DNA of 64,000 nucleotides from Roseimicrobium sp. ORNL1. GTDB taxonomy: Bacteria; Verrucomicrobiota; Verrucomicrobiia; Verrucomicrobiales; Verrucomicrobiaceae. Of the stretch, positions 19,079-22,566 are shown piece by piece; the stretch's first letter is position 1, and every line of letters starts with the position of its first letter. The DNA lies in NCBI RefSeq assembly GCF_011044495.1, contig NZ_CP049143.1, positions 4,712,001 to 4,776,000 of the forward strand. The letters are read 5' to 3'. The position numbers and the translations under genes are program-made. Under the pieces are notes generated by a model. That model was not told where the DNA came from, ran no database searches, and worked only from the letters and a program-made list of their open reading frames with translations.

Positions 19079-19585
19079 ATGGCTACCACCCAAGTCATCC
19101 TCAAAGAAAAGATCGCCAGCCTCGGAGCCGAGGGTGACATTGTGAAAGTGCGTACCGGCTACGCTCGCAACTTCCTCCTCCCCAAGGCCAAGGCCTACGA
19201 AGCCACCGCTGGCAACCTCCGTCACCAGGCCAACCTCCAGAAGGTCCGCGCCGAGCGCGAAGCCAAGGAAGTGGAAGAAGCCGAGAAGCTCGCCAGCAAG
19301 CTGAAGAAGCTCAAGCTGAAGCTCACCCTCGCCACCGGCCAGGGCGGCAAGGCCTTCGGTTCCATCACCACGAAGGACATCGTGGAAGCAGTGGCCGCCA
19401 GCACCGCCAAGGTCACGCTGGACCGCCACCAGATCGAGCTCGAGAAGCCCATCAAGAGCACCGGCACCTTCGAAGTTCCCGTCAAGCTTCAGGCTGGCGT
19501 GGAGTGCTTCCTGAAGATCACCGTCGCCGCTGCTGAAGCCGGCGCCGAAGCCGCTTCCGAAGAAGGCGAAGAATCTGCCGAGTAA
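19079..19585 (+). CDS. rplI: 50S ribosomal protein bL9
   Basis: 168 aa. The N-terminal globular domain holds the family signature VILKEKIASLGAEGDIVKV followed by GYARNFLLPKAKAYEAT. A long connecting helix (about residues 45-80, rich in Glu and Lys) follows, then the C-terminal domain with GKAFGSITTKDI and VPVKLQAGVECFLKITV. The extra acidic Ala/Glu tail (EAGAEAASEEGEESAE) is longer than in most bL9 proteins. bL9 binds 23S rRNA at the L1 stalk base. The usual rpsF-ssb-rpsR neighbours are absent. Only the rplI-dnaB pairing, widespread in bacteria, is kept. No Shine-Dalgarno motif precedes the ATG. Confidence 0.97.
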   Translation: MATTQVILKEKIASLGAEGDIVKVRTGYARNFLLPKAKAYEATAGNLRHQANLQKVRAEREAKEVEEAEKLASKLKKLKLKLTLATGQGGKAFGSITTKDIVEAVAASTAKVTLDRHQIELEKPIKSTGTFEVPVKLQAGVECFLKITVAAAEAGAEAASEEGEESAE

Positions 19586-19770: not shown

Positions 19771-21303
19771 ATGCCTCCCGAAAAAGCTCCCAACGTCACG
19801 CCATTCGATCCGAATGTGGCGCCAGCTGGAGGGCAGGGATTTCAGAAGGGACAAGGACAACAGGGCGGCTTCCAGGGCAAGCCACGCCCTGCGGTGGACA
19901 TCAACGATCCTACTCGCTCCCTTCCCTGGGACTCCGATGCAGAGAAGGGCGTGCTCTCGTGCTTCCTCCACGATCCCACCAACCTGCTGAACGATGCGCA
20001 GGTGAGCATTCCCGACGAGGCCTTCTACCACCCGGCGAACCAGCTCCTGTACAAGGTGATGAAGGAGTTCAACAACGGCACGCGCCCTGTTGAATACATC
20101 GCGCTCACAAACTACCTGCGCGATGCAGGCATGCTGGAGAGGATTGGCGGCGCCGGCACGCTCTCCGAGCTGCTGAACTTCGTCCCCACGCCCGCGCACT
20201 ACGGCTACTACAAGGGCATCCTGCGCGACAAGCATCTCCTGCGCCGCATCATTCACGCCTGCACCGAGAGCGTGCAGAATGCGTACGAGTTCAACGAGGA
20301 TGTCCCCTCCCTGCTCGACCGCGTGGAAGAGCGCGTGATGAGCGTGCGCGATGACACCGAGAGTCGCGACACGATCAAGCCACTGAAGCATCACGTGATG
20401 GAGGCCTTTGACTCCATCGAGGAAATGCTCAAGGACCCGGGCAAGCTCCGCGGCATTCCCACGGGCTACCGCAAGCTCGATGCCCTGAGCAACGGCCTGC
20501 AGGGTGGTGAAATGTTCGTCCTGGCTGCTCGTCCCTCGATGGGCAAGACCTCACTCGTGATGAACATGGTGGAGCACGCCGCTCTCGGTTCAGAGATTCC
20601 TGTCGCGGTCTTCAGCCTTGAAATGAGCGCCGTCATGCTGGTGCGCCGTCTCATTGTAGCGCGCGCCGGTGTCTCCATGAGCCGCATCATGAATGGCATG
20701 CTCAGCCGCGAAGAGCTGCGCGCCGTGACCCGCGCCTGCTCAGACCTGCAAAAGGCCAACATCTTCATCGACGAAACCCCGGGCCTGAACATCCTGGACT
20801 TCCGCGCGAAGTGCCGCCGCCTGAAAAAGCAGCATAACATTGGCATGATTGCCATCGACTACCTCCAGTTGATGACCGCGCCGACGAAGAAGTCCGACAG
20901 CCGTCAGAACGAAATCGCCGCCATCTCCGCCGGTATCAAGGCAGTGGCCAAGGAATTGAATGTTCCGGTCGTTGTGCTCGCCCAGCTCAACCGCGCGGTG
21001 GAGTCCCGCAAAGGCCAGCGCCCCATGCTGAGTGACCTTCGTGAATCCGGCTCCATCGAGCAGGACGCGGACATGGTGGGCCTCCTCACCCGCGCCGACT
21101 ACGCCGGCAGTAAGCAGGAGGAAGATTCCAAGGATCGCAAGGACGCCGAAGCGGACGATGAGGCAAACAAGGGCAAGGGCCTCCTCATCATCGCCAAGAA
21201 TCGTAACGGCCCCACCGACGACGTGCCCCTGAAGTTCATCGCTGAACTCATGCGTTTCACTGAGCGCGAGTTCGACGAAAACGAAAAGGATGCCGGGGAT
21301 TGA
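19771..21303 (+). CDS. dnaB: Replicative DNA helicase DnaB
   Basis: 510 aa, close to the family norm of 450-480 plus a Gly/Gln-rich N-terminal tail (GGQGFQKGQGQQGGFQGK). The N-terminal primase-interacting domain begins LPWDSDAEKGVLSCFLHDP. The RecA-like motor holds Walker A ARPSMGKTSL, Walker B MIAIDYLQLM, the arginine-finger region QLNRAVESRKGQRP with SDLRESGSIEQDAD, and the C-terminal IIAKNRNGPTDDVPLKF. A DK/DE-rich insert (SKQEEDSKDRKDAEADDE) in the loop before the final strand is longer than usual. It unwinds DNA at the fork in the cytosol. It directly precedes a candidate replication-origin segment. Confidence 0.97.
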   Translation: MPPEKAPNVTPFDPNVAPAGGQGFQKGQGQQGGFQGKPRPAVDINDPTRSLPWDSDAEKGVLSCFLHDPTNLLNDAQVSIPDEAFYHPANQLLYKVMKEFNNGTRPVEYIALTNYLRDAGMLERIGGAGTLSELLNFVPTPAHYGYYKGILRDKHLLRRIIHACTESVQNAYEFNEDVPSLLDRVEERVMSVRDDTESRDTIKPLKHHVMEAFDSIEEMLKDPGKLRGIPTGYRKLDALSNGLQGGEMFVLAARPSMGKTSLVMNMVEHAALGSEIPVAVFSLEMSAVMLVRRLIVARAGVSMSRIMNGMLSREELRAVTRACSDLQKANIFIDETPGLNILDFRAKCRRLKKQHNIGMIAIDYLQLMTAPTKKSDSRQNEIAAISAGIKAVAKELNVPVVVLAQLNRAVESRKGQRPMLSDLRESGSIEQDADMVGLLTRADYAGSKQEEDSKDRKDAEADDEANKGKGLLIIAKNRNGPTDDVPLKFIAELMRFTEREFDENEKDAGD

Positions 21304-22073
21304 TCGAGGCTTGCCCAAGCCTGTGGCTCCGCCCACGTGGCCGGTTGCAGCCCATCGCCCAGCTCCTCATTTTCCCCCGCTCGGGTGCATCCACCGCCGG
21401 CGCGTAAAGCGTTAGGCCGATTCATTTTGGAGACCTTAAGAAATCGGCCCTCGCGGCAACGCAAAATCAAGGTTTCTCACAAGTTGCTCACAAGTTATTC
21501 ACAACTTATCCACAGTACTTCACAGGGGCGGAAGTCGGGTGCGAACAAGCGGCGTTTTTACGTCGTTGTTGCTAAAAAGGCCGTGTGACAAATGTGGAAC
21601 GCGCCAATTTATTGCGTGGAACAAAAATTACAGGTCTAGGTTTCGCTTTAGGGACGCCGAACCGCTTGGACGGAACTCATAAAATAGCGCTCCATTCATT
21701 CAGCCCTGCAAAGTAATCGCGTTAATTCGTTCATAATAAAACGATTAACCACAATACACCGCGACCGCTATTTTCACAGATTTCACACAAAAACCCCGTA
21801 TTAGTGGTTCTTGTTTCGCGCCTCCGTCGGCACGCGTCTACGCTCCATGTGACAGCATTGTCACCGGCGCTTCCTCAATGGGATGTGTGAATCACCAGGA
21901 TGAGGCAGGTTCCATGCCATCATGCACATCGCGATATCGCCTCTCGAAGAAGCAAAATTCGTTTATGGAAATTCCCATTTGGGCCGAGTTATTCACATCG
22001 TTCTGGCGCACTTGTGAAAAAGCTATTCACCCCTCGCAAGCCCTCCCTAATCAGCGAGTTCTATCTGACAGAA
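21304..22073. other. Gene-free AT-richer segment, candidate replication origin
   Basis: About 770 bp between dnaB and a hairpin contain no credible gene. It contrasts with its GC-rich surroundings (for example TAATAAAACGATTAACC near 21734). Besides the array at 21473-21524, further DnaA-box-like 9-mers occur: TTATTCACA at 21989, TTTTTCACA on the minus strand at 22013-22021, ATTTTCACA at 21770 and GATTTCACA at 21779. A direct repeat GTGGAAC is spaced 22 bp (21594 and 21616). The combination of clustered boxes, an adjacent AT-rich stretch and a replication gene next door suggests oriC or a strong DnaA-binding locus. GC-skew data would decide. Confidence 0.5.
21473..21524 (+). promoter_or_regulatory. 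Tandem DnaA-box array
   Basis: Five 9-mers lie head to tail: TTTCTCACA (21473), TTGCTCACA (21484), TTATTCACA (21495), TTATCCACA (21506) and TACTTCACA (21516). The first four are spaced exactly 11 bp apart, all in one orientation. TTATCCACA is the perfect DnaA consensus and TTATTCACA differs by one base; the outer ones are weaker. Regular spacing near one helical turn fits cooperative DnaA filament binding, as in the origin itself or a DnaA-titrating locus. Confidence 0.65.
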
Positions 22074-22134: not shown

Positions 22135-22566
22135 TCAGCCGATTTCGAGCAAACCACCCTCGCCAATCGCGAAGTCCGGATTCCACGCCACTTCCCAATA
22201 GTGGCCATCCAGATCGCGGAAGTATCCATAGTGCCCGCCCCAGAAGGCATCCTGCGCGGGTTTTACGATGGTGCCCCCAGCCCGCTCCGCCAGCGCCAGG
22301 ACTTCTGCCACCTGCGCCTTTTCGCGGACGTTGTGGGCAATCGTGATTCCCGGTGCTCCCGCCGCCGGCACAGGCGTGTCCGGCGAAATATCCTCCGCCA
22401 GCGCGTGGAAAGGGAAAAGCGCCAGTCGCACTCCACCCGTGCGGAAAAACGCCACTGGGCCGCCTTCTTCATAGGAGGTGGAGAATCCGAGACCGTCCCG
22501 GTAGAATCGAACGGCACGCGGCAGATCAGCAACACCGAGCGTGAGGAGGGAAATACGAGGTTCCAT
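22135..22566 (-). CDS. VOC family protein (lactoylglutathione lyase-like)
   Basis: A 143-aa VOC protein. PRISLLTLGVADLPRAVRFY is the first strand and helix, with LTLGV in place of the usual metal His. DGLGFSTSYEEGGPVAFFRT follows. The second half has GITIAHNVREKAQV (His in the metal position) and FRDLDGHYWEVAWNP, with the final Glu ligand. FWGGHYGYFRD is typical of the YaeR/PA2721-like glyoxalase group. The function is probably detoxification or isomerisation, with the substrate unknown. Cytosolic, monocistronic. It is followed by a large hairpin and then by the candidate origin segment, so its transcript may be stopped before entering that region. Confidence 0.83.
   Translation of the reverse strand: MEPRISLLTLGVADLPRAVRFYRDGLGFSTSYEEGGPVAFFRTGGVRLALFPFHALAEDISPDTPVPAAGAPGITIAHNVREKAQVAEVLALAERAGGTIVKPAQDAFWGGHYGYFRDLDGHYWEVAWNPDFAIGEGGLLEIG

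Follow-up and report, generated by a model that had tools for sequence, protein, structure and literature searches.

The stretch of DNA that follows dnaB in Roseimicrobium sp. ORNL1 raises the question of whether its cluster of DnaA boxes is the chromosomal origin or a site at which DnaA is regulated. The genome of this strain (G000) is a single contig of 7,957,748 bp, and the window, the whole stretch of 64,000 nucleotides that was analysed, covers positions 4,712,001-4,776,000. The DnaA-box element is about 550 bp long and is located at 4.733 Mb of the genome. A sequence-only reading of the window had proposed a chromosomal origin, with a datA-like titration locus or another DnaA-regulated site as the alternative.

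The DnaA-box element and its neighbours

The features of the locus, in window coordinates, are as follows.

19079-19585, rplI, upstream of dnaB
19771-21303, + strand, dnaB, replicative helicase, left neighbour, outside the element (NCBIfam TIGR00665, E 3.5e-133)
21473-21524, + strand, left DnaA-box array read from the sequence, five 9-mers on one strand with spacings of 11, 11, 11 and 10 bp
21473, + strand, DnaA-like box TTTCTCACA, 1 mismatch to TTWTNCACA
21484, + strand, DnaA-like box TTGCTCACA, 2 mismatches to TTWTNCACA
21495, + strand, DnaA box TTATTCACA, 0 mismatches to TTWTNCACA
21506, + strand, DnaA box TTATCCACA, 0 mismatches to TTWTNCACA
21516, + strand, DnaA-like box TACTTCACA, 2 mismatches to TTWTNCACA
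21594-21600, + strand, first GTGGAAC motif, part of a 22-bp pair kept in the family
21616-21622, + strand, second GTGGAAC motif of that pair, at 22-bp spacing
21720-21779, no strand, AT-rich block, 38% GC, where GC also dips across the 34 aligned loci
21735-21747, IHF-consensus-like site AATAAAACGATTA, inside the AT-rich block, 1 mismatch to WATCAANNNNTTR
21745, 21770 and 21781, weak DnaA-like boxes read from the sequence, the first two inside the AT-rich block
21989-21997, + strand, right DnaA box, exact TTATTCACA
22013-22021, - strand (opposite to the array), extra DnaA box TTTTTCACA
22135-22566, - strand, glyoxalase-superfamily gene, right neighbour (Pfam PF00903, E 6.8e-18)

The approximately 830 bp between the dnaB stop (21303) and the glyoxalase gene contain no convincing gene, and the boxes lie within this interval, in agreement with the sequence-only reading, which had described gene-free DNA beside dnaB. 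The phased array with a fifth box at 10 bp was recovered as that reading had given it (21473-21524), together with the further boxes, namely weak ones at 21770 and 21781, the exact TTATTCACA at 21989 and TTTTTCACA at 22013. For the last of these, no exact box was seen at the corresponding position of the sister species G001. The DNA between the boxes had been called AT-rich, which is true only in a mild sense, with a GC content of 38-55% per 60-bp bin versus about 60% around it.

The sequence TTATNCACA occurs 48 times in the 7,957,748 bp (39 times for the reversed control), and three of these copies are found in the element. Under random placement, the probability of three TTATNCACA inside 503 bp was estimated at about 1e-4, and that of any TTATNCACA pair inside 12 bp at 0.003. 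The search for TTNTNCACANNTTNTNCACA with up to one mismatch returned the element only (two overlapping matches; none for the reversed control), which is the sole 11-bp DnaA-box tandem in the G000 genome at this tolerance. The DnaA protein of G000 has an intact box-binding domain (PF08299).

Conservation across Verrucomicrobiaceae

The same layout recurs in the family. About 90 bp separate the 11-bp-phased DnaA boxes from a GTGGAAC pair with 22-bp spacing; an AT-rich block carrying an IHF-like site comes next, and a final DnaA box closes the series 440-515 bp from the first box. Genomes were searched with a strict pattern (TTCACA, 75-105 bp, TGGAAC, 15-17 bp, GTGGAAC), in which TTCACA and the GTGGAAC pair are search conditions. 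The pattern was found in 34 of the 68 family genomes, representing 7 of 11 genera, and in 1 of the 318 other genomes of the order (Fisher P 1e-28, a value that ignores the relatedness of the genomes); its reversed form matched 2 of 386 genomes. A loose pattern, the GTGGAAC pair alone, occurred in 45 of the 68 genomes and was set aside; because its reversed control also matched many, the stricter pattern alone was used as evidence. G000 contains a second strict-pattern match at 1.132 Mb, which was taken for chance. The strict pattern is absent from half of the family genomes and from 4 of the 11 genera, and this counts against reading the element as a datA/DARS-like locus. A scan of 84,980 species genomes yielded 39 stretches, comprising 24 of the Verrucomicrobiaceae type (Prosthecobacter, Verrucomicrobium, Brevifollis, Phragmitibacter, and further Verrucomicrobia) and 15 that were scattered, most of them in Bacteroidales and one in Akkermansia.

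In total, 34 distinct loci (62 before duplicate removal) were taken for comparison. Their left box reads TTRTTCACA, and the TT and T positions, which were not search conditions, are kept in 34/34. Two more features outside the search conditions are kept: an ACA lies exactly 11 bp before the left box in 34/34 loci, and a right TTNTTCACA box is found 438-516 bp from the left one in 32/34 loci (versus 0.4% expected by chance). As for the two loci lacking the right TTNTTCACA, L251 has no sequence on the right-hand side beyond the element, and L099 carries TTTTCCACA and TTATCCACA instead. When the 34 loci were aligned, the GC content fell to 32.5% at +120 to +160 from the first GTGGAAC, compared with 60% in the flank. 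The IHF consensus scored here was that of E. coli. With up to one mismatch, it was present at +100 to +200 in 24/34 loci versus 6.8 in shuffled sequences (sd 2.3, max 12), and a perfect match was present there in 6/34 loci versus 0.3 in shuffles; four other zones of the 34 loci showed no excess of the site. Since the motif had been spotted by eye before the test and the loci are related, this enrichment is suggestive rather than proof.

The genes around the element vary. In genera g1, g3, g4, g5, and g6, it follows dnaB, an arrangement seen in 8 of the 30 dnaB loci examined. By eye, the gene past the element in g6 resembles carB, and in g8 the element is flanked by a LOG-like gene and an oxidoreductase gene. 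In strain G012, it lies 0.69 Mb from dnaB. Since the element is kept while both neighbours change, it is unlikely to serve a neighbouring gene. In a genome of another family of the order (G039, locus L031), TTATTCACA was observed 64 bp after dnaB, on a contig that stops short of the remaining parts of the element; the link with dnaB may be older than the family. The GC skew around dnaB and the element was very strong (about 0.25-0.3) in L215 (G006) and in L028 and L029 (g3), and weak in other genera.

Position of the element relative to the apparent origin

The GC skew of G000 was calculated from sampled 20-kb stretches, a few of which overlap, such as the pair beginning at 4,774,649 and 4,776,001. 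It was negative in 10/10 stretches to the left of the element (3.8-4.73 Mb, about 0.95 Mb) and in 31/33 to the right (4.73-7.54 Mb, about 2.8 Mb), the latter divided into 14/16 from the element to 5.3 Mb and 17/17 from 5.3 to 7.54 Mb. Positive skew was found in 9/10 stretches at 7.54-7.96 Mb, 10/10 from 0.2 to 2.56 Mb, and 9/11 from 2.9 to 3.78 Mb. Within this positive arm, opposite skew was observed at 0-0.2 Mb (negative in 3/3) and 2.56-2.9 Mb (negative in 6/6), the strongest value being -0.277 at 2.58 Mb; inversions or acquired islands are a possible explanation. The minus-to-plus switch, i.e., the skew minimum, is located at about 7.545 Mb, 2.8 Mb from the element.

ParB-binding parS sites lie near the origin of replication. 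Two parS-like palindromes GTTCCACGTGGAAC of G000 were detected at 7,572,451 and 7,573,277, 826 bp apart; a gene resembling mnmG/gidA by eye contains one of them, and the other is immediately next to it. The closed genome of G012 (8,220,857 bp), another member of the family, agrees: its element, at 4.508 Mb, lies inside a negative skew arm, 3.7 Mb from exact parS sites at 486 and 1343 (857 bp apart). The element is thus separated from parS by 36% of the genome length in G000 and by 45% in G012. In addition, the flanking skew in 25 loci showed no change from minus to plus. The orientation of the element relative to skew appeared constant in several loci, but not across the 25, and was dropped from consideration.

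These data bear directly on the proposal of a primary chromosomal origin. The element shares with bacterial oriC regions a cluster of DnaA boxes, an adjacent AT-rich block, and an IHF-like site, and it adjoins dnaB. The dnaA gene (4.928 Mb), which dnaN adjoins by eye, is 194 kb away, and an origin beside dnaA is reported from skew mapping of Methylacidiphilum infernorum, which is a remote relative within the phylum (PMC2474590); given that report, gene context alone cannot decide. Unlike an oriC, however, the element is off the minus-to-plus skew switch and not near parS, both in G000 and in G012. On the basis of the skew and parS placement, the primary origin was rejected and is considered highly improbable. 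The origin claim of the sequence-only reading is therefore not upheld, the element being part of a long arm of constant skew, and the skew check that accompanied the claim placed the minimum, with the two parS-like sites, elsewhere at about 7.55 Mb.

A candidate for the true oriC was noticed at G000:C1:7549640-7550420 (L146, 9640-10420), in a region that by eye is intergenic between aroC and rnc. It consists of a duplicated module of about 476 bp with TTACCCACA, TTATTCACA/TTGTTCACA boxes, several GATC, and one GTTCCAC per module; the sister species G001 has a single copy of this module. A BLAST search with the candidate gave G000 itself, G001, and a 30-bp match in G019. These 3 of the 68 genomes, one of them that of the query, do not establish the true origin for the family as a whole. 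In G012, a second DnaA-box cluster (5.1127-5.1133 Mb) was rejected, as it looks largely coding and is devoid of GTGGAAC. The same genome has 22 copies of TTATTCACA (18 forward and 4 reverse) versus 4 for the reversed control.

A probable DnaA-regulating locus and its alternatives

Since the layout is kept in the family though far from the apparent origin, the element looks like a site of replication control and not a start of replication. We consider it probable, at roughly 55%, that it is a conserved single-copy non-coding locus that regulates DnaA from outside the origin and works like datA or DARS2 of E. coli. The alternative offered by the sequence-only reading, a datA-like or otherwise DnaA-regulatory site, gains support here from the family-wide box layout, the IHF-like site, and the retention of the element with changing neighbours. 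According to published descriptions, datA combines five DnaA boxes with an IHF site, and DARS2 has IHF and Fis sites in addition to its boxes (PMC4585315), and the chromosomal positions of both are reported to matter (PMC5010248). Like datA, the element is non-coding, lies outside oriC, and has several DnaA boxes. Its putative IHF site, a consensus-level candidate with 1 mismatch, falls between boxes, the place where datA is described as having its IHF site (PMC4585315). The element differs from datA in its 11-bp tandem array, a last box about 500 bp off, the GTGGAAC pair, and its great distance from the origin. DARS1 and DARS2 are likewise non-coding loci with DnaA boxes away from the origin, with IHF sites in DARS2. 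The DnaA-box clusters of B. subtilis also lie outside the origin, and loss of all six is reported to cause early initiation (PMC5295017); there are six per genome there, compared with one recognisable structured element here.

We infer that DnaA would bind the boxes and IHF or HU the AT-rich block. The phased array should favour cooperative DnaA loading along a single helical face, and a bend at the IHF-like site could loop the far-off right box back to the array, closing the complex. Such a complex would either lower the DnaA available to the origin, by titration or ATP hydrolysis, or restore it by nucleotide exchange, and duplication of the locus at fork passage would couple this control to the cell cycle. 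To our knowledge, the GTGGAAC pair has no counterpart in datA or DARS, which speaks against a datA/DARS-like function. The distance of 36% or 45% from parS does so as well, as moving datA near the terminus is reported to perturb control in E. coli (PMC5295017).

A dormant or secondary origin, or a checkpoint signalling fork passage in the manner of Vibrio crtS, would account for the origin-like parts in fixed order, the iteron-like 22-bp pair, and the remoteness from the origin in the two closed genomes. We regard it as unlikely, as no skew footprint is visible around the element and no DNA-level plasmid or phage relative was found; for the same lack of a match, a plasmid or phage origin was ruled out. 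The crtS locus is described as a site on a chromosome arm that, once replicated, sets off replication at another place (PMC5991422, PMC11711613), but its binding protein is RctB and its target a second chromosome, of which none is known here. A new kind of replication checkpoint, in which an origin-like assembly in the distal half of the arm would report late fork passage to the origin, is quite improbable; its parS half-sites might link DnaA to the ParB segregation system, or the assembly might be a reserve origin.

DnaA doubles as a transcription factor, and the element is intergenic and AT-rich, as would suit a DnaA-controlled promoter or other transcription control region. This explanation is decidedly unlikely, considering that the neighbouring genes differ between genera and that the one promoter-like site, no more than expected by chance, lies outside the element. 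Neither an Rfam match nor a strong RNA fold (z -1.45) was detected, and a structured RNA was ruled out on the same grounds. The GTGGAAC motif is an exact half-site of the parS-like palindrome GTTCCACGTGGAAC, which was found (exact or with one mismatch) in 6/6 relatives searched and at two places near the G000 skew switch. This identity would suggest that ParB or a related protein recognises the element as a site of chromosome organisation. Whereas parS is a palindromic site of 14-16 bp, the element has half-sites as direct repeats 22 bp apart, with the full palindromes elsewhere, and a 7-base coincidence is possible, so that such a site is very unlikely. With GTTCCAC also present once in each module of the candidate true origin, the pair itself may be recognised by ParB or by a second initiator-like protein, or may be a variant DnaA site or a coincidence.

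No locus of this kind in Verrucomicrobiaceae was found in the titles and abstracts of the open-access literature (subscription papers and preprints excluded), and such a locus is apparently undescribed in Verrucomicrobia. If the element is a DnaA-regulating locus, programs that locate origins by DnaA boxes close to dnaA or dnaB could pick a false site in Verrucomicrobiaceae. With a length of about 550 bp, a single copy, and cultivable hosts such as Prosthecobacter, the element offers a precise target. What is known of loci that regulate DnaA outside the origin comes mainly from E. coli and B. subtilis, and the conservation of such a locus in Verrucomicrobiaceae would mean that this type of control arose or was kept far more widely.
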